A DNA stretch of 64,000 nucleotides, from positions 1-64,000 of the forward strand of contig JAIEMN010000032.1 in assembly GCA_019752115.1 (NCBI GenBank). The letters run 5' to 3'. Every line of letters begins with the position of its first letter. Positions within the stretch are counted from its first letter, which is position 1. The stretch comes from Gemmatimonadaceae bacterium. GTDB taxonomy: Bacteria > Gemmatimonadota > Gemmatimonadetes > Gemmatimonadales > Gemmatimonadaceae. Shown here piece by piece: positions 12,750-23,216 of the stretch. The position numbers and the translations under genes are program-made. A model generated the notes under the pieces. It searched no databases and was not told the DNA's origin. It saw only the letters and a program-made list of their open reading frames with translations.

Positions 12750-13195
12750 GTCCGTCGATGCCGTCCGAATCCGACGCCCTCGAGATCACGCCACAGGTGC
12801 GGATCCCGATGACGGAGATCGTCCTGACCGCGATCTCCGGCGGTGGCCCCGGCGGGCAGCATGTGAACAAGAGCGCGACGCGCATCGCGTTGCAGTGGAA
12901 CGTGCGGACCTCACTCGCCCTGCGCGAGGAGCAGCGGGAACGGCTGCTGCAGCAGCTCGCCTCGCGTCTCGATACCGAGGGGCAGCTGCGGATCGTGGCG
13001 GGCGAGTATCGCAGCCAGCAGCAGAACCGCCGGGCCGCGCTGGAGCGTCTGCAGCAACTGGTTGCGCGGGCCCTCGTGGTGCCGCGTGTGCGGCGGGCTA
13101 CCAAGCCCTCGCGCGGTGCGGTGCAGGAGCGACTCACCGACAAGCGCAAGCGCGCCGAGACCAAGCGCCAGCGCCGGCGGGATCACGATGACTGA
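12746..13195 (+). CDS. arfB: ArfB-type peptidyl-tRNA hydrolase (ribosome rescue)
   Basis: The product is 149 residues. It contains the class I release-factor catalytic motif GGGPGGQHVNKSAT near residues 32-45 and a long basic C-terminal tail (KRKRAETKRQRRRDHDD), which in ArfB inserts into the empty mRNA channel of stalled ribosomes. The codon-recognition domain of true release factors is absent, as expected for this family. It overlaps the methyltransferase gene by 4 bases and the SulP gene by 8 bases. Confidence 0.92.
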   Translation: MSPSMPSESDALEITPQVRIPMTEIVLTAISGGGPGGQHVNKSATRIALQWNVRTSLALREEQRERLLQQLASRLDTEGQLRIVAGEYRSQQQNRRAALERLQQLVARALVVPRVRRATKPSRGAVQERLTDKRKRAETKRQRRRDHDD

Positions 13196-14912
13196 CGCGC
13201 GGGCCGCGCGCCGCGACACGACCTTCGTCCCGAAGCTCTTCAGCACGCTCTCGGGTTACACGCGCGCGCAGCTTGTACACGACCTCACCGCCGGGGTCAT
13301 CGTGGCGGTCGTGGCCCTGCCCCTCTCGATCGCCTTTGGCATTGCGAGTGGCGTCACCCCTGATCGGGGGCTCGTCACGGCCATCGTGGCCGGCTTCCTG
13401 ATTTCCGCACTCGGCGGCTCGCGCGTGCAGATTGGCGGGCCCACCGGCGCGTTCGTCGTGATCGTCTCGGGGATCGTTGCCAAGCATGGTGTGGACGGGC
13501 TGATCGTGGCCACGATGCTCGCCGGCGCGTTGCTGGTGCTGATGGGCGCGATGAAGCTCGGCGGGGTGATCAAGTTCGTCCCGCAACCGGTGGTGATCGG
13601 GTTCACCAGCGGCATCGCGTTGATCATCTTCAGCGGCCAGGTGAAAGACGCGCTGGGCCTCACGATGGCCAGTGTACCGGCGGACTTCGTTCCCAAATGG
13701 GAAGCCTATGCGGGCGCCATCGGGAGCGTCTCGCCGACCGCCGTGGCGATCACCGCGAGTACGCTCCTGATCCTGCACTTCTGGCCCCGCATCTCCGTGA
13801 AGGTGCCGGCGCCGTTCGTCGCGCTCGTGGCCACAACGGCGGTGGTGAGCGCACTGCAGCTGCCGGTGGAAACGATTGGCTCGCGCTTTGGCGCCGTCGG
13901 CGGTGGGCTGCCCGCCCCGCATTGGCCGACCGTCACCTTCGACACGGCGCGTGCGCTTGCCGGCCCGGCGTTCACGATTGCCCTGCTGGCGGCGATCGAG
14001 TCGCTGCTGTCGGCGGTGGTGGCCGATGGCATGATCGGCGGGCGGCACCGCTCCAACATGGAGCTGGTGGCACAGGGCGTGGCGAACATCGCCTCGCCGC
14101 TCTTCGGGGGCATCCCGGCCACCGGAGCCATCGCGCGCACCGCGACCAACGTGAAGAGTGGCGGACGCACCCCCATTGCCGGCATGACGCACGCGGTGGT
14201 GCTGCTCCTCATCACGCTCTTCGTAGGCAAGCTCGCGGCCCGCATTCCGATGGCGACGCTCGCCGGCATCCTGACGATGGTGGCCTACCATATGTCGGAG
14301 TGGCGCAACTTCCTGCGCCAGCTCAAGGCGCCGCGGTCCGATGTCGTCGTGCTGCTCACGACGTTCCTGCTCACGGTGGTCGTCGATCTCACCGTGGCGC
14401 TGCAGGTGGGCATGGTGCTCGCCGCGTTCCTTTTCATGAAGCGCATGGCGGAAGTCACCAACGTGCAGTCGATCACCAGTCAGATCGACGACGGCACCGA
14501 GGAGGATGGCGACGGGTCCATCCGCACGCGCGTCGTCCCGCGTGGCGTCGAAGTCTACGAGATCGACGGGCCGTTCTTCTTTGGCGCGGCGGAGCGCTTC
14601 AAGGAGGCGCTGGGCGAAGTGGGCCGGCGCCCGAAGGTGCTGGTGCTGCGCCTGCGCAAAGTGCCGGCGATCGACGCGACCGGGATCTCCCTGTTGCACG
14701 AGCTCCTGCACCGGTCGCGTCGCCAGGGAACGCAGCTGGTGCTCTCCGGCGTGCAGGCGCAGCCCCGCGCCGCCCTCGAGCGGGCGGGGCTGCTGGACGA
14801 CATCGGCGCGAGTCGCGTGGTGGGAGACATCGACGAAGCGCTCGGCGTGGCCGCGATGCTGGCGCACCAGATGCCCACACCAGCGCACGGCTCACCGACT
14901 ACCACGCGATGA
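13188..14912 (+). CDS. SulP-family anion transporter with STAS domain
   Basis: The product is 574 residues. The membrane part starts with the SulP signature LVHDLTAGVIVAVVALPLSI and has 10-14 hydrophobic segments; the STAS domain occupies roughly residues 430-560 (RGVEVYEIDGPFFFGAAERF, then LVLRLRKVPAIDATGI). Substrates in the family include sulfate, bicarbonate and dicarboxylates, and none can be assigned here. The ATG at 13188 overlaps the arfB stop and gives the normal N-terminus; the frame is open further upstream only as a shadow of arfB. It runs into a convergent gene, overlapping it by 14 bases. Confidence 0.9.
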   Translation: MTDARAARRDTTFVPKLFSTLSGYTRAQLVHDLTAGVIVAVVALPLSIAFGIASGVTPDRGLVTAIVAGFLISALGGSRVQIGGPTGAFVVIVSGIVAKHGVDGLIVATMLAGALLVLMGAMKLGGVIKFVPQPVVIGFTSGIALIIFSGQVKDALGLTMASVPADFVPKWEAYAGAIGSVSPTAVAITASTLLILHFWPRISVKVPAPFVALVATTAVVSALQLPVETIGSRFGAVGGGLPAPHWPTVTFDTARALAGPAFTIALLAAIESLLSAVVADGMIGGRHRSNMELVAQGVANIASPLFGGIPATGAIARTATNVKSGGRTPIAGMTHAVVLLLITLFVGKLAARIPMATLAGILTMVAYHMSEWRNFLRQLKAPRSDVVVLLTTFLLTVVVDLTVALQVGMVLAAFLFMKRMAEVTNVQSITSQIDDGTEEDGDGSIRTRVVPRGVEVYEIDGPFFFGAAERFKEALGEVGRRPKVLVLRLRKVPAIDATGISLLHELLHRSRRQGTQLVLSGVQAQPRAALERAGLLDDIGASRVVGDIDEALGVAAMLAHQMPTPAHGSPTTTR

Positions 14913-16329: not shown

Positions 16330-18573
16330 ATGTCGGCTCAGGCGTCCCGCGTCAATCAACTCGTTGCTGACGGACTTGGTCTCGAAGTCGACCAAGCGCG
16401 TTGGCGTGCTCTTGCCCGTCAGGTCTCGCCACAGGACCCCCTCGCCGGCCGCCTGCGCTCGGTGGGCGGTGCCGTGGACATCGGCTTCCTCGACCGGCAG
16501 CTCTCCGCGGAGGACCTCCGCCGCGCCATTGCCGAACGGCAGGTGCCGCTGGTGCTGCTCGACGAGGCGCGCGATGAAGCCATCGTGCTCACACGCGCCG
16601 CGGATGCGCGCGTGCAGGCTCGCCTGATCGCACGCGAAGGCGCCGAGGAAACGCTCGATGGGTCACCGGAGGCGTTGGCCGCGGCCATCGTCCGCCGCGT
16701 GGGCACATCGCCCATCCCGGCGATGGCCCCGATGGGGCTGCGCCCGGCGGTCGCCGAGCGCGGCGACCACGCCCCGCATGCCGCCATCGGCGCGGACGGG
16801 CATCATGGCGAAACGCATCGCACGCCGCTGCAGCGCACGTTTGCGATGCTCGAGCGTGAACGGCGCGAAGTCCTGACGATCTTCTTCTACGCCACGCTGG
16901 CCGGCGCCCTGAGCCTCATTCTGCCGCTCGCGGTCGGTGGCATCGTCCAGCTCGTGCAGGGCCGCCTCTTCCTGCAGCCGGTCGTCGTGCTGATCGCCTT
17001 CGTGATCCTGGGGACGATCGTGGCCGGCGTGCTGCAGATCGGCATTCTCAAGGTGGTGGAACGCATTCAGCAGCGCGTCTTCGCCCGCATGGCGCTCGAG
17101 TTCGCGTTCCGTGTCCCGCGCCTCAAGTACGCGTCGTCGCTGGAATCGAACCTGCCGGAGCAGATGAACCGGCTGTTCGAAGCGGTGGCGATCCAGAAGG
17201 GCGTGCAGAAGCTGCTGGTGGATGTGCCCACGGCGCTGCTGACCGTGGCGTTCAGCCTCATCCTGCTGACGCTGTACAGCCCGTGGTTCTCGATCTTTGC
17301 GGTGGTCGTGGTGGCGCTCCTCGTGCTGATCATCCGCGTGACTGGTCCGGAGGGGCTCGAGACGTCCATCGCCGAGTCCAAGTACAAGTACAAAGCCGTG
17401 CACTGGCTCGAGGAGCTGGCGCGCGCCTTTCACGCGTTCAAGTTCGCCGGCGATTCCACCCTGCCGGTGGAGCGCATGGACGATGTCATCACCGGCTACC
17501 TCAAGTACCGGCGCAAGCACTTCGCGGTCCTCGTCAAGCAGACGATCGCGCTGATCGGCTTCAAGACGTTCATCACCGCCGCCGTGCTCATTCTCGGCGC
17601 CACGCTCGTCCAGACCAACCGGTTGCTCCTCGGCCAGTTCGTCGCCGCCGAAGTCGTGATCGTGACCGTGCTGGCCGGCGTGGAAAAGCTGATCAGCAGC
17701 CTGGCGACGGTGTATGACGTGCTGACCTCGGTGGACAAGGCTGGCCATGTGGCCGACCTGCCGCTGGAAGCGCGTGGGGGCCTCGCCCCGATCCATGCCG
17801 CCGGTGTTGGCATCGCGGTGGAAACGAAGGATCTGCGCTATCGCTATCCGAACGCGCGGCAGGCGTCGGTGGACGGGGTCTCGGTGCGCATCGCGCCGGG
17901 CGAGCGCGTCGCCATCATGGGCGTGGACGGCTCCGGGCGCAGCACGCTGCTCAAGCTCCTGGGTGGGCTCATCGACGACTACGACGGCACCATCCGGTTT
18001 GATGGCATCACGCTGCGCGATCTCGACCGGCCCGCGCTGCGGGCGCGGATTGGGCAGATGCTGTCCTGGACGGATCTCTTCGACGGTACCGTGGAAGAGA
18101 ACATCGCCGTGGGGCGCGCGCACATCACGCCACTCGACGTCCGTCAGGCGCTCGACGACCTCCAGCTCACCGACGAGATCCAACAGCTCCCGCAGGGCAT
18201 CCAGACCGAACTCACGAACGGCGGGCGCACGCTGCCGGCGCATCTGGCCAACAAGCTGCTGGTGGCCCAGGGGATCGTGGGGACGCCGCGGCTCGTGGTG
18301 CTCGACGACTTCTTCCAGAATCTCGAGGCGGCGTCGCGCTCCCTGATCATTCGCCTGCTCACCGACCGGGCGCGGCCGTGGACGGTGATTGCGGTGTCGC
18401 ACGACCCGCAGTTGCTGGCGGCCTTCGACCGCGTCCTGGTGGTCCACGACGGGAAGGTGGTGCGCGATGGCTCGTTCGCCACGCTGCGCACCGATCCCGT
18501 GTGCCAGATGTTGCTGCATGACGATCGCGCCGCTCTGGTCGCGTCGTTTGACCGTCCGTCTGCCGGAGCCTGA
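16330..18573 (+). CDS. Type I secretion-like ABC protein with degenerate ATPase motifs
   Basis: The product is 747 residues. The first 170 or so residues are a soluble domain of unknown type (no catalytic Cys or His as in C39 peptidases). Residues 175-460 hold six membrane helices of an exporter. The nucleotide-binding domain (about 500-735) is clear by order but altered at its key positions: Walker A is GVDGSGRST with Arg537 for Lys, the Q-loop reads MLSWTDLF without Gln, the signature is LPAHL (635-639) instead of LSGGQ, and Walker B ends LDD with Asp660 for the catalytic Glu. The switch His is kept (AVSHD). HlyD and TolC genes follow at once. Confidence 0.85.
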   Translation: MSAQASRVNQLVADGLGLEVDQARWRALARQVSPQDPLAGRLRSVGGAVDIGFLDRQLSAEDLRRAIAERQVPLVLLDEARDEAIVLTRAADARVQARLIAREGAEETLDGSPEALAAAIVRRVGTSPIPAMAPMGLRPAVAERGDHAPHAAIGADGHHGETHRTPLQRTFAMLERERREVLTIFFYATLAGALSLILPLAVGGIVQLVQGRLFLQPVVVLIAFVILGTIVAGVLQIGILKVVERIQQRVFARMALEFAFRVPRLKYASSLESNLPEQMNRLFEAVAIQKGVQKLLVDVPTALLTVAFSLILLTLYSPWFSIFAVVVVALLVLIIRVTGPEGLETSIAESKYKYKAVHWLEELARAFHAFKFAGDSTLPVERMDDVITGYLKYRRKHFAVLVKQTIALIGFKTFITAAVLILGATLVQTNRLLLGQFVAAEVVIVTVLAGVEKLISSLATVYDVLTSVDKAGHVADLPLEARGGLAPIHAAGVGIAVETKDLRYRYPNARQASVDGVSVRIAPGERVAIMGVDGSGRSTLLKLLGGLIDDYDGTIRFDGITLRDLDRPALRARIGQMLSWTDLFDGTVEENIAVGRAHITPLDVRQALDDLQLTDEIQQLPQGIQTELTNGGRTLPAHLANKLLVAQGIVGTPRLVVLDDFFQNLEAASRSLIIRLLTDRARPWTVIAVSHDPQLLAAFDRVLVVHDGKVVRDGSFATLRTDPVCQMLLHDDRAALVASFDRPSAGA

Positions 18574-18576
18574 CCC

Positions 18577-19935
18577 ATGGCCACGTCCGATCTCGATATC
18601 GAACGCGAGCTGAAGCACCTGCCCCTGGAAACGACCGCGCTGCTCGGCGAGGCCGACACCGGGCGCATCGTATCGCGTTGGCTCCTCGGTATTCTGCTCA
18701 CGCTCGTCGTCGTCCTCTTCCTGCCCTGGCAGCAGAGCGTGAGTGGCAATGGCCGCGTCACGGCCCTGAGCCCGTCCGACCGCCCGCAGCAGCTGCAGAC
18801 CCGCATCGACGGGCGCATCGAAGCGTGGTTCGTGCAGGAAGGTCAGTACGTGAAGAAGGGCGACTCCATCGTCCGGATCTCGGAAATCAAGGACGATTAC
18901 CTGAACCCGAATGTGCTGCCGCTCACGCGGCTGCAGCAGACGGCCAAGGAAGGCGCCATCGCCGAGAAGCTGAACAAGGCCGCCGCGTTGGCGGTGCAGA
19001 TCACGCAGCTCGAGCAGCAGCGAGACTTCAAGCTGCAGCAGACGGCGGCCAAGGTGCAGCAGTATCGCGCCGAGGTGAGGCAGGCGACGCTCGAGGACTC
19101 GGTGGCGCGGGATCAGCTGCGGCGCCGTGAGCGGCTCTTCCGCGACACGCTGGGGCTGGTCTCGGTGAACGACCTGCAGACGTTCCAGATCCGCGTGCAG
19201 GCGGCCGCCGCGAAGCTGGTGGAGAAGCAGCAGATGCTCGCCATCACCGAGACCGAGCTCGCGAGTGTGCCGGTGGAGTACGGTGAGAAGATTGCCAAGG
19301 CGCGTTCCGACCGGGCGGCCACGCTGGCCGACGTGAACGAAAGCCGGTCCGACGTGGCGAAGCTGCGCGACAAGGTGGGGTCGCTGGCGATGCGCAATGC
19401 GTTCTACGTCATCGAAGCGCCCCAGGATGGCTACGTCGTGCGCGCCACGCGGGCGGGTCAGGGTGAAATCGTAAAGGCCGGCGAGCCGATCGCGTCGGTG
19501 CAGCCGGCGCATCCGCGCAAGGCGGTGGAGCTGTACGTGAAGCCGATGGATGTGGCGCTGCTCAAGCCGGGGCGCCACGTACGCGTGTTCTTCGACGGTT
19601 GGCCGGCGCTGCAGATCTCCGGCTGGCCGCAGGTGGCCGTGGGCACCTTTGGTGCGACCGTCGAAGTCATCGACCAGTTCCCGAGCACGGACGGGCGCTT
19701 CCGGGTGTTGCTCGTACAGGACACCACCCGCGACGAACCATGGCCGGCGCAGCTGCGCCTCGGAACGGGCGTGGAAGGCTGGGCCATGCTCGACAACGTG
19801 ACCGTGGGCTGGGAAATCTGGCGTCAGCTGAATGGCTTCCCGCTCTCCATCAAGGCGAGTGATGCCCTGCCGGGTGACGCGGTGGCCGGTGATGGCGTTG
19901 GCAAGGATGGCGCGAAGGGTGGAGGCAAGAAGTGA
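18577..19935 (+). CDS. HlyD-family periplasmic adaptor
   Basis: The product is 452 residues. A short cytoplasmic start is followed by one membrane helix (about 31-50, LLGILLTLVVVLFLPW). A split lipoyl/barrel-sandwich domain comes next (IDGRIEAWFVQEGQYVKKGD and APQDGYVVRATRAGQGEIVK) on either side of a long coiled-coil hairpin rich in Gln and Leu (about 125-270). A beta-barrel and a Gly/Lys-rich tail end it. HlyD proteins bridge an inner-membrane ABC exporter to TolC. The gene begins 3 bases after the ABC stop and overlaps the TolC gene by 4 bases, so the three form one unit. Confidence 0.92.
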   Translation: MATSDLDIERELKHLPLETTALLGEADTGRIVSRWLLGILLTLVVVLFLPWQQSVSGNGRVTALSPSDRPQQLQTRIDGRIEAWFVQEGQYVKKGDSIVRISEIKDDYLNPNVLPLTRLQQTAKEGAIAEKLNKAAALAVQITQLEQQRDFKLQQTAAKVQQYRAEVRQATLEDSVARDQLRRRERLFRDTLGLVSVNDLQTFQIRVQAAAAKLVEKQQMLAITETELASVPVEYGEKIAKARSDRAATLADVNESRSDVAKLRDKVGSLAMRNAFYVIEAPQDGYVVRATRAGQGEIVKAGEPIASVQPAHPRKAVELYVKPMDVALLKPGRHVRVFFDGWPALQISGWPQVAVGTFGATVEVIDQFPSTDGRFRVLLVQDTTRDEPWPAQLRLGTGVEGWAMLDNVTVGWEIWRQLNGFPLSIKASDALPGDAVAGDGVGKDGAKGGGKK

Positions 19936-21431
19936 CCGCCTGGCGCAGCCTTGCCGGTGCCATGCTGTTGCTGGCGACGGCACCGTCGCCGGTGGTCGCG
20001 CAGGGCGGCGGTGCCACCGGCGCGGGCACGGCGTCGCGCACCAGTGCGCTCGTGGGCGTCACGATCGACACCAGCGGCACGCCGTTCCCCTTCCCGGCGT
20101 TCGTGGATGTCGTGCTGGCCAACCATCCCGTCGCCCAGCAGGCGCGGCTGGTGGCGCAGCAGGCGCGTGCCGAATTGCGGCAGGCCTGGGGTGCTTTCGA
20201 TCCGAAGGTGATGCTGGCGTGGGATCAGAAGCGCTTCGGCGGGTCGGAGTACTACAACTACTTCGATGCCGATGTGAAGATTCCGCTCCCCATTGGCGCC
20301 GACGTCACGGTGTCCTACGACCGCTCGCTTGGGCGCTACATCAATCCGGATCGGCGGACGGTTGGCGATGGCACGCTGTCGGCCGGGATTTCCATTCCTC
20401 TCGGCCAGCGCATCATCACCGACGAACGGCGCACCGCACTCGCGCAGGCCAAGGCGGCGCGCGACGCCAGCGACGCCGAGCGTAGCGCGCTGCTCAACAA
20501 GCTGCTCTTCAGTGCGTCCAAGGACTACGGGGCGTGGTACGAGTCCTGGCGGCGCCGGGCGATCGCACAAGAGGGCGAGGCGCTGGCGGAGTTCCGCCTG
20601 CGGGCGGTGCGCGGGCGCGTGGCGAACGGTGAGAGTGCGCCGATCGACACGATCGAAGCATTGCTTGAGTGGCAGCGCCGGCAGGTCACGCGTTACGAAG
20701 CCGAGGCGCAGTTCTACGTGGCCACGCTCAACGTGACGGCGTACCTGTGGAACGCGCGGGGTGAAGCGGCGCCATTGCCGACCAACGCGAAGCCTGTGCT
20801 CGACGGGCTCAGTGGGGCGGCGATCGATTCCACGCGCTTGGATGGTCTGCTGGCCACGGCTACCCGGCGGCACCCCGATCTGCTCAAGGTGCAGGCCAAG
20901 CTGCAGCAGGCGAATGCCGAACGGCTGCTGGCGTTGCAGGGGATCCTGCCGTTCGCGGAAGCGAAGGTGGCCGGACTGGCCCAGCGCGGCGGCGACGACG
21001 CGTTCTTCGATCGTGACCGCCTGTCGGACAACTACAAGGCGGCACTCTCGGTCAACACGCCCCTGCTCTTTCTCAAGGAGCGGGGAAAGTTTGGTGCGAC
21101 CGATGCGAAGCAGGAGTTCCAGCAGTTCGAGCGCGACCGGGTGCGCCGGGATGTCGAGTTCGATGTCCGGGCGGCGATGTTCGAGCTGTCCAATCTGCTG
21201 CGCATCCTCGAACGGCAGGTAGCAAGCGTGCGCAACGCGCGGCTGCTGCGCGACGCCGAGCAGGTCCGGTTCGAGAACGGCGAAAGCACCCTGCTGGTGC
21301 TGAATATCCGCGAACGGCTGGTCCTCGACGAGGCGGCCAAACTGGCCGCGCTCGAAGGCAAGATCGCCTCGGCCCGAGGCGCGCTGGCCCTGGCCACCGG
21401 CGATCGGGAGCTGTTGCTGACTGGCCGCTGA
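19932..21431 (+). CDS. TolC-family outer-membrane efflux protein
   Basis: The product is 499 residues with a GTG start overlapping the hlyD stop. It has a signal peptide (cleavage near VVAQG) and two repeated helical hairpins typical of TolC (AELRQAWGAFDPKVMLAWD, then LLKVQAKLQQANAERLLALQ), and ends with a long amphipathic helix pair. It would form the outer-membrane channel of the tripartite system with the HlyD and ABC proteins just upstream. No C-terminal extension is present. Confidence 0.9.
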   Translation: MTAWRSLAGAMLLLATAPSPVVAQGGGATGAGTASRTSALVGVTIDTSGTPFPFPAFVDVVLANHPVAQQARLVAQQARAELRQAWGAFDPKVMLAWDQKRFGGSEYYNYFDADVKIPLPIGADVTVSYDRSLGRYINPDRRTVGDGTLSAGISIPLGQRIITDERRTALAQAKAARDASDAERSALLNKLLFSASKDYGAWYESWRRRAIAQEGEALAEFRLRAVRGRVANGESAPIDTIEALLEWQRRQVTRYEAEAQFYVATLNVTAYLWNARGEAAPLPTNAKPVLDGLSGAAIDSTRLDGLLATATRRHPDLLKVQAKLQQANAERLLALQGILPFAEAKVAGLAQRGGDDAFFDRDRLSDNYKAALSVNTPLLFLKERGKFGATDAKQEFQQFERDRVRRDVEFDVRAAMFELSNLLRILERQVASVRNARLLRDAEQVRFENGESTLLVLNIRERLVLDEAAKLAALEGKIASARGALALATGDRELLLTGR

Positions 21432-21472: not shown

Positions 21473-21748
21473 ATGCACGACGACGACTTTCTTGATGACG
21501 ATGCACTCCTCGACGAGGAGTTTCCGCTGGGCGACGGCACAGCCGACCTGGCCGGTGTCGTGCAGTGCCCGTACTGCGGCGAAGAGGTGGAGATCAGCCC
21601 CGACCCGGGCTCCGGGAACGAGCAGCAGTACGTCGAGGACTGCCAGGTGTGCTGCCGCCCGTGGCAGGTGTCGGTGAGCTACGACGAAGACGGCACGGCG
21701 CACGTGTTCGTCGATGCCAGCCAGGATTTCGACAGCGACGATGACTGA
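21473..21748 (+). CDS. CPXCG-motif zinc-ribbon protein
   Basis: The product is 91 residues. The centre holds [11 protein letters not shown] and, 20 or so residues later, DCQVCCRPW, a four-cysteine zinc ribbon of the CPXCG family of unknown function. Both ends are strongly acidic ([14 protein letters not shown] and FDSDDD). It overlaps the next gene by 8 bases. The family is widespread in Proteobacteria and related phyla, often near stress genes, without an assigned role. Confidence 0.85.
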
Positions 21749-23216
21749 GCTGTCGGTGCTGCCGGCCGACGAGGTGCGCCGTCTCCTGCCCGACGCCTGT
21801 CAGCGTCCGGCGCCGGAGGGCGCCCGGCTGGTGGCCCGTCACTACCTCCAGCAGCTCCTGGAGGCGCGCGCCGGGTGGGCCGCGTCGCTCACCCCGGTCG
21901 CCGACGGGCCGAATGGCGATCCCGCCACCGTGGACCGCACCGCCCTGCTGCACGCGGCGCGCGTGGCACTGCGCCGCCTGCGCGCCACGCTCCGTGAGCA
22001 TGAACGCGTGCTGGACGGCGTCGCCGACCGGCGGACGCTGCGGGCGCTCCGGGCACTGAGTCGTGCCACGAGTGCCCAACGGGATCGGGATGTGCAGCTG
22101 GCCTGGCTCGACGCGCAGGGCGATGCCCTGACGCCAGCGGCTCGGGTGGAGGCGCGCACCCTCCGCACCCGGTTGGCGCGCGCGGTGGGCCCCAATGGCC
22201 AGCGTGTGGAAGCGGCCTTTGCCCGATCGCTCGACCCGATTGTGGACACGCTCCTGGCGCGGCTGGACCGCTACGACCTGCCCCATCGCGTGGGGCATGA
22301 TCCGGCGCCGGTGACCTTTGCGCGGCAGCTGTCCACGCGACTCACGCGTGGGGTGAGCCGGTTGCGACGCGATCTGGCCCATGTGCGCTCCGTGGCCGAT
22401 CAGGACGCCATGCATGCGGTGCGCATTCGCCTCAAGCGCCAACGGGCGCTGCTGGCGCCGTTCGCCAAGACGCGTCCCGCGCTCGGCGCCTGGTTCGACT
22501 GCGCCACGCGCGGGCAGGATGTGATCGGGGCCCTGCGCGACGCGCATCTGCTCGCGGAACGCGCGCGCCGCGCCAAGCTCGAGGTGCTGGCGCGCGCACT
22601 CGATGATGTGGTGCTGGGTCACTACGTCGCGTTCCGGCACGATTGGATCGACGGCATGGAGACGACGTTCTCGCACGCCGAACGCGCGGCGGCGGTGTTG
22701 CGCGCCGAGGGGACGCCGGCGACCGCCGCGGGCGTTCCGATGGAGATCGAGCGGAAGTATCTGCTGCGGAGCTGTCCCGCCGAGGCGCGCGCCGTGGCGC
22801 CCGACCGCATCGAGCAGGGGTGGATTCCGGGCACGATGCTGCGCGAACGGCTCCGACGCCGGACGGCTCCCGACGGCACCGTGCAGTGCTGGCGGACGGT
22901 GAAGCTGGGCCCGGCCGAAGCGCGCATCGAGGTGGAAGAGACCACGAGCCGCGAGCTCTTTGACGCGATGTGGCCGCTCACCGCCAGCGCCCGTGTGCGC
23001 AAAGTGCGCCATGTGGTGCCGTGGGGCGCCCACCACTGGGAGATCGATGTGTTTCTCGATCGCGAACTCGTGCTCGCCGAGGTGGAGCTGGCGTCGCTCG
23101 ATGAACCGGTCGTGCTCCCGCCCTGGCTGGCGGCGTGTGTCGAGCGGGAGGTCACCGGCGATCCCGCTTATTTCAACGCGGTGCTCGCCCGCCCCGATCC
23201 TGCGGCCCATGCGTGA
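21741..23216 (+). CDS. CHAD-CYTH fusion protein
   Basis: The product is 491 residues. The CHAD domain covers about 20-310 and repeats histidine/arginine-rich helices ([20 protein letters not shown], then [16 protein letters not shown]). The CYTH domain begins at residue 334 with its signature MEIERKYLL and continues with alternating charged strands ([19 protein letters not shown]) and the EVEL motif. CYTH enzymes hydrolyse triphosphates and CHAD binds polyphosphate. The order here is CHAD first, the reverse of most known CYTH-CHAD proteins. The start overlaps the CPXCG stop (ATGACTGA). Confidence 0.88.

Follow-up and report, generated by a model that had tools for sequence, protein, structure and literature searches.

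A distinct family of HlyB-like ABC-fold exporters with a predicted pseudo-ATPase domain, encoded beside HlyD and TolC genes

Introduction

ATP-driven transport is the defining property of ABC transporters. In type I secretion systems, the protein cargo is usually encoded close by. The ATP site of ABC proteins is composite, formed by Walker A and Walker B of one chain and the signature of the other (PMC7756269). In known asymmetric pairs, deviations are spread over both nucleotide-binding domains (NBDs) and one composite site stays consensus, and exporters in which the catalytic Glu is replaced by Asp can retain residual ATPase activity (PMC7756269). Transport without ATP has been described for LmrA: deprived of its NBD, it performs ethidium–proton symport, and the acidic residue E314 of TM6 is required for ATP-independent, ion-coupled transport by both LmrA and NBD-less LmrA (PMC2704374, PMC6155054).

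The window considered here is the whole stretch of DNA that was analysed, i.e. the first 64,000 nucleotides of contig JAIEMN010000032.1 from a Gemmatimonadaceae bacterium. A preliminary description of this DNA drew attention to an ABC exporter gene with altered ATPase motifs, which it suggested to be a conserved variant that might not hydrolyse ATP or might be powered in another way. The family to which this gene belongs, its distribution, its gene neighbourhood and its possible mode of action are presented below. No earlier description of the family was found in the literature searched, which comprised open-licence papers only and makes this weak evidence.

The exporter gene and its ATP-site residues

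The gene is a frame of 747 codons that is open throughout, and its product has the layout of an HlyB-type ABC exporter, with a C39-like domain followed by a six-TM domain and an NBD. Pfam recognizes ABC_tran (E 3.9e-15) and ABC_membrane (E 5.6e-07). The features of the gene are as follows.

16330..18573, + strand: ABC-fold exporter with predicted pseudo-ATPase NBD, 747 aa (intact ORF, Pfam, fold match to HlyB)
16330..16750, + strand: N-terminal C39-like domain, aa 1-140 (pLDDT 91.1 when modelled alone)
16822..17769, + strand: six-helix transmembrane domain (TMD), aa 165-480, best-conserved region in the family
17650..17652, + strand: E441, acidic residue of TM6, close to its periplasmic end (conserved in 96% of 153 members)
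17815..18489, + strand: NBD, aa 496-720, predicted fold retained (pLDDT about 95-98)
17920..17946, + strand: Walker A GVDGSGRST, with Arg537 replacing Lys (codon check: R537 = 17938-17940)
18064..18066, + strand: S579 at the column of the Q-loop Gln (codon check, alignment)
18232..18246, + strand: LPAHL replacing the LSGGQ signature (codon check, alignment)
18304..18309, + strand: Walker B Asp659 retained, Asp660 replacing the catalytic Glu (codon check, alignment)
18400..18402, + strand: switch His691, retained in the window protein (codon check)

The open frame and each of the changes listed in the preliminary description (R537, loss of the Q-loop Gln, LPAHL and D660), as well as the retained H691, were borne out. 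Its wording that every ATPase motif is altered goes too far: the four changes are real and, among the consensus residues (Lys, Gln, LSGGQ, Glu and His), only His691 is left, but the Walker A glycines, Ser538/Thr539 and the Walker B Asp659 are also still present. With Lys, Glu and the signature all changed in one chain, no consensus site can be formed, either in a homodimer or in a heterodimer with a canonical chain, and ATP hydrolysis is therefore unlikely as the driving force, with residual activity possible. Taken together, the substitutions strongly suggest that the window protein is non-hydrolytic. The N-terminal domain contains no cysteine within aa 1-165 and should therefore have no C39 peptidase activity, so that, judged by sequence, neither the peptidase nor the ATPase of the chain would be active.

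Predicted structure

Modelling of the window protein with AlphaFold, based on 72 family members, gave a mean pLDDT of 87.9 and a pTM of 0.88, and the best full-length Foldseek match of the model is HlyB (8dck_A). Superposition on MsbA, IrtAB, PrtD and HlyB gives VIA-align Z scores of 27-28, and the NBD matches those of TAP1 and ComA with Z 27 over about 240 residues (rmsd 2.0-2.3). Pfam and the model thus agree on an ABC exporter fold of type IV (ABCB-like), with a six-TM domain and an NBD, and the NBD fold is, as modelled, kept despite the loss of motifs. The C39-like domain resembles the C39-like domain of HlyB (Z 10.4), 3b79 (Z 9.6), 3zua (Z 9.5) and the peptidase domains of ComA and PCAT1 (Z 9.2-9.5); these matches, of moderate Z (8-10) and 6-12% sequence identity, represent fold resemblance. 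A C39 fold devoid of the catalytic Cys is what defines an HlyB-like CLD, and the window protein has one.

Extent of the family

Relatives were sought with a profile (A2) of the membrane domain alone, chosen to keep the NBD from steering the results, in phylum samples comprising one genome per species. Full-length members score at least 208 bits, versus 59 bits for the best of the other ABC exporters. Hits were obtained in 46 of 395 Gemmatimonadota, 77 of 296 Nitrospirota and 39 of 148 Bacteroidota (26% of the sampled species in each of the latter two), 17 of 199 Planctomycetota, 10 of 292 members of the phylum of Vampirovibrio (Cyanobacteriota) and 7 of 349 Pseudomonadota. The proteins form a distinct exporter family present in at least six bacterial phyla. 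The host is Gemmatimonas-like, its nearest named relatives belonging to the Gemmatimonadaceae, and the gene is found in 26 of the 29 other genomes of the genus, mostly with 72-84% identity and with about 50% for two of them. Named members occur in Novosphingobium aromaticivorans DSM 12444 (SARO_RS19820, on plasmid pNL2), Sphingobium baderi, Sphingomonas hankookensis and Riemerella anatipestifer, where they are annotated merely as ABC transporter proteins (‘ABC transporter ATP-binding protein’).

Nitrospirota genomes carry two to four family genes each, often as a tandem pair behind HlyD and TolC genes (e.g. L062:1484-5105, L193:3823-7400 and L229:4405-8100). One genome of the Cyanobacteriota phylum contains a broken family copy with internal stops (L191, L192; G701:C13:73143-74058).

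ATP-site motifs across the family

Motifs were counted in 153 aligned members and 30 canonical exporter references. LSGGQ is absent from all 153 members and present in its exact form in 24 of the 30 references; likewise, no member combines Lys, Gln, Glu and His, versus 30/30 references. The Q-loop and the signature are lost almost universally, the Walker A Lys is retained in 87/153 members (among them, with one exception, the sampled Bacteroidota shown) and the switch His in 46/153, so that the His691 of the window protein is not a constant feature. Lys, Glu and His occur together, without LSGGQ, in six members (two Vampirovibrio relatives and four Bacteroidota).

The Walker A Lys position is occupied by Arg or Gln in the whole genus and by Glu, Ala, Ser or Thr in more distant Gemmatimonadota; such drift of the column (R, Q, E, A, S) is what a site no longer in use would be expected to show. 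In the Pseudomonadota members, a P-loop is not recognizable and Pfam ABC_tran gives no match, and several cyanobacterial members also lack any P-loop. The C-terminal domain of the Pseudomonadota proteins nevertheless aligns with canonical NBDs by hhalign (probability 99.7%, E 9.6e-27, versus 0.06% for the membrane domain used as negative control) and is therefore still homologous to them. The membrane-domain tree, obtained by a short search and with unknown root, requires the Lys state to change six times and the Glu state nine times, so that catalytic residues were lost repeatedly or drifted.

Alignment with homologues, the check proposed in the preliminary description, thus reveals the same or equivalent substitutions in the genus and changes of the same columns throughout the family, and close relatives with canonical motifs, which it had named as a refutation, were searched for and none was found. 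A chance origin of the substitutions in the window was rejected, the same columns being changed throughout the 153 relatives, as against 30/30 canonical exporters with K, Q, E and H; a sequencing or assembly error was discarded as well, given that these columns are changed in dozens of independent genomes.

These counts bear on the possibility of a slow or nucleotide-gated exporter, in which ATP would still bind to the NBDs, Arg537 and Asp660 would stand in weakly for the lost residues, and transport would be gated or powered by binding alone or by very slow hydrolysis. Asp659, Ser538/Thr539 and His691 remain in the window protein, its NBD fold is intact in the model and more than half of the aligned members have the Walker A Lys. 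This explanation is nonetheless considered unlikely in view of the nearly universal loss of signature and Q-loop, the free drift of the Lys column in Gemmatimonadota and the members without P-loop in Pseudomonadota and Cyanobacteriota. With the Lys retained in 87 members, and Lys, Glu and His together in six, some of the family may still bind nucleotide. As a whole, judging from its motifs, the family is probably powered or used other than by ATP hydrolysis.

Selection on the membrane and nucleotide-binding domains

Nei-Gojobori estimates for 72 within-Gemmatimonadaceae pairs (Gemmatimonadota), approximate at dS near 0.9, give median dN/dS values that rise from 0.041 in the TMD to 0.101 in the NBD and 0.264 in the N-terminal domain. 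The TMD is better conserved than the NBD, with mean pairwise identities of 54 versus 44% in Gemmatimonadota, 49 versus 31% in Cyanobacteriota, 49 versus 32% in Bacteroidota, 54 versus 35% in Planctomycetota and 52 versus 33% in Pseudomonadota. Nitrospirota are the exception, with comparable conservation of NBD and TMD (57 versus 56%). Canonical references exhibit the inverse pattern over all pairs (31% for the TMD versus 51% for the NBD), a contrast that may be enlarged by their recruitment via NBD similarity. The NBD is thus under purifying selection, retained and constrained, though probably not for catalysis.

A degenerating gene or a functionless pseudogene remnant is hardly credible under these conditions. 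Decay of an ATPase would indeed look like a loss of catalytic residues, but the frames are open, the gene persists in nearly all congeners within a conserved operon, dN/dS is far below 1 and the family extends over six phyla; decay is ruled out by dN/dS, synteny and distribution. The earlier reading as a conserved variant and not as decay is upheld by the same observations, together with the recurrence of the same or equivalent substitutions.

Operon and gene neighbourhood

The exporter gene is followed by the two other genes of a type I secretion gene set.

18577..19935, + strand: HlyD-type periplasmic adaptor, 452 aa (Pfam HlyD_3, Biotin_lipoyl_2)
19932..21431, + strand: TolC-family outer-membrane factor, 499 aa (Pfam OEP, E 3.4e-32)

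The best NCBIfam match of the adaptor is TIGR01843 (type_I_hlyD), under cut-off. Four nucleotides separate the exporter stop from the HlyD start and the TolC start overlaps the HlyD stop, so that the tight coupling announced in the preliminary description is real. The three genes stand together at 16330-21431 in the window and at most related loci; HlyD and TolC genes adjoin the exporter in most family loci checked, in either order, while some extra Nitrospirota copies (e.g. L194, L195, L197, L199, L202 and L230-L232) have neither adjacent in the stretch read. Elsewhere in Nitrospirota (L300, L203-L205), one family exporter gene and one HlyD gene are found together with three TolC-family genes in a row. 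In the window, a gene for a SulP-type sulfate permease with a STAS domain (13062-14912) precedes the operon in the same orientation, and a CHAD-domain protein is encoded downstream of TolC (21714-23216), in a synteny kept in Gemmatimonas and not elsewhere. The CHAD gene and the other downstream genes of the window were rejected as parts of the system, recurring within Gemmatimonas only.

The neighbourhood is also informative about a heterodimer in trans, in which the protein would be the degenerate half of an asymmetric exporter with its canonical half encoded elsewhere, as in TM287/288, TmrAB and BmrCD. One degenerate site is common among ABC exporters (PMC7756269), the genome itself encodes other exporters with intact motifs, and family members form tandem pairs in Nitrospirota. 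However, the known pairs distribute their deviations over both NBDs around one consensus site (PMC7756269), whereas the loss of Walker A Lys, catalytic Glu and signature in one chain leaves both sites impaired in every pairing. Scanning 46 loci with a canonical NBD profile revealed no canonical ABC exporter within the operon; the neighbours that match it at L277 and L280 are separate divergent genes on the opposite strand. In addition, the tandem pairs of Nitrospirota consist of degenerate copies only, which suggests heterodimers of two degenerate subunits. A canonical partner in trans is thus distinctly unlikely.

Energy could also come from an ATPase or motor elsewhere acting on the complex, e.g. 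recruited via HlyD, and a SecA-like ATPase has been proposed as the energy source of another HlyD-rich module, one that has no ABC gene (PMC4452313). No conserved ATPase gene accompanies the operon across the loci checked, which renders an external motor very improbable. The HlyD–SecA module itself was dismissed as a description of the present family, since it is a different module (PMC4452313).

Among the neighbours at 41 loci, no cargo gene recurs across phyla; a protein cargo, if there is one, may be encoded at an unlinked site. TetR-type regulators recur beside Bacteroidota loci. NhaR-like LysR regulators (NF008284, 190-239 bits, cut-off 219) adjoin operons, mostly divergently, in three phyla: Nitrospirota (L200/L301, L300), Pseudomonadota (L281, L282) and Gemmatimonadota (L047, L215). 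NhaR is a sodium-responsive regulator in E. coli, and these neighbours hint at an ion- or pH-related function of the operon. The presence of local regulators and the absence of a cargo gene favour efflux of a small substrate or ion over protein secretion; they point to an operon that more likely exports such a substrate than a protein.

E441 and the question of ion coupling

The column of E441 contains Glu in 147/153 members, a hydrophobic residue in the 30 canonical references and Asn in ComA. TM6 spans residues 435-475 in the model, and E441 is placed near its periplasmic end by secondary structure. Its position seems, on our reading, not to coincide with that of E314 in LmrA, and its role could be structural or lie in HlyD binding. 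By analogy with LmrA, a drive by an ion gradient, perhaps via E441, is plausible; the data are equally compatible with a gated passive conduit or a regulatory role.

Proposed mode of action

The window protein would form the inner-membrane part of a conduit through the envelope, with the HlyD adaptor and the TolC channel as the other two parts. It would descend from HlyB/PCAT-type ABC exporters, its NBD would have turned into a pseudo-ATPase that serves as a scaffold with a structural or regulatory role, and the TMD dimer would work without ATP hydrolysis at its own NBDs. The least certain step is how a substrate moves: alternating access of the TMDs might carry a small substrate at the expense of an ion gradient, with E441 as candidate protonation site, or else the substrate might pass down its own gradient. 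A pseudo-ATPase exporter within an HlyD–TolC conduit, not run by its own ATP hydrolysis, is the explanation that we regard as rather probable. The stronger proposal, namely a natural and widespread ABC-fold family that abandoned ATP for secondary active, ion-gradient-driven transport coupled through E441 in such a conduit, is tentative, and the balance of probability is against it.

If the preferred explanation is true, these would be the first natural ABC exporters without ATP hydrolysis, or represent a new use of the ABC fold as channel or regulator. If the transport is ion-driven, the family would be a natural counterpart of the engineered NBD-less LmrA. The family would also render the disputed ion coupling of ABC exporters (LmrA, MsbA) directly testable, being a system without ATP fallback. 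As a caution, family genes annotated ‘ABC transporter ATP-binding protein’ should not be counted as ATP-driven pumps on that ground.

Comparison with known systems

By its motifs, the family appears as a coherent and widespread pseudo-ATPase branch of HlyB-like exporters. With the CLD-type transporters of type I secretion and the PCATs, it shares the order C39-like domain, TMD and NBD and the HlyD and TolC partners. Over its full length, the fold of the window protein is best matched by HlyB, and its N-terminal domain matches the HlyB CLD and C39 domains. Unlike HlyB and PCATs, the present family has lost the ATPase motifs and has no dedicated cargo gene, and the window protein falls far under the cut-offs of the curated models TIGR03375, TIGR01846 and TIGR03796 (at best 186.8 bits versus 693.1 for TIGR03375). 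In TM287/288, TmrAB, BmrCD and CFTR, the catalytic Glu is similarly replaced by Asp or another residue and the signature is changed, but one consensus site is kept, whereas in the present family a single chain has lost both halves and its gene stands by itself. LmrA and its engineered membrane-domain version LmrA-MD offer an ABC exporter TMD capable of ion-gradient transport without ATP and dependent on a TM6 Glu (PMC2704374, PMC6155054); however, the NBD of LmrA itself is functional and LmrA lacks an HlyD/TolC operon. E441 apparently lies elsewhere in TM6, and ion coupling of the present family would be a possibility by analogy only. EmrAB-TolC and AcrAB-TolC, driven by the proton-motive force, likewise unite an adaptor, TolC and an inner-membrane transporter under local TetR/LysR-type regulators; their inner-membrane part is of the MFS or RND type, whereas here it has the ABC fold.
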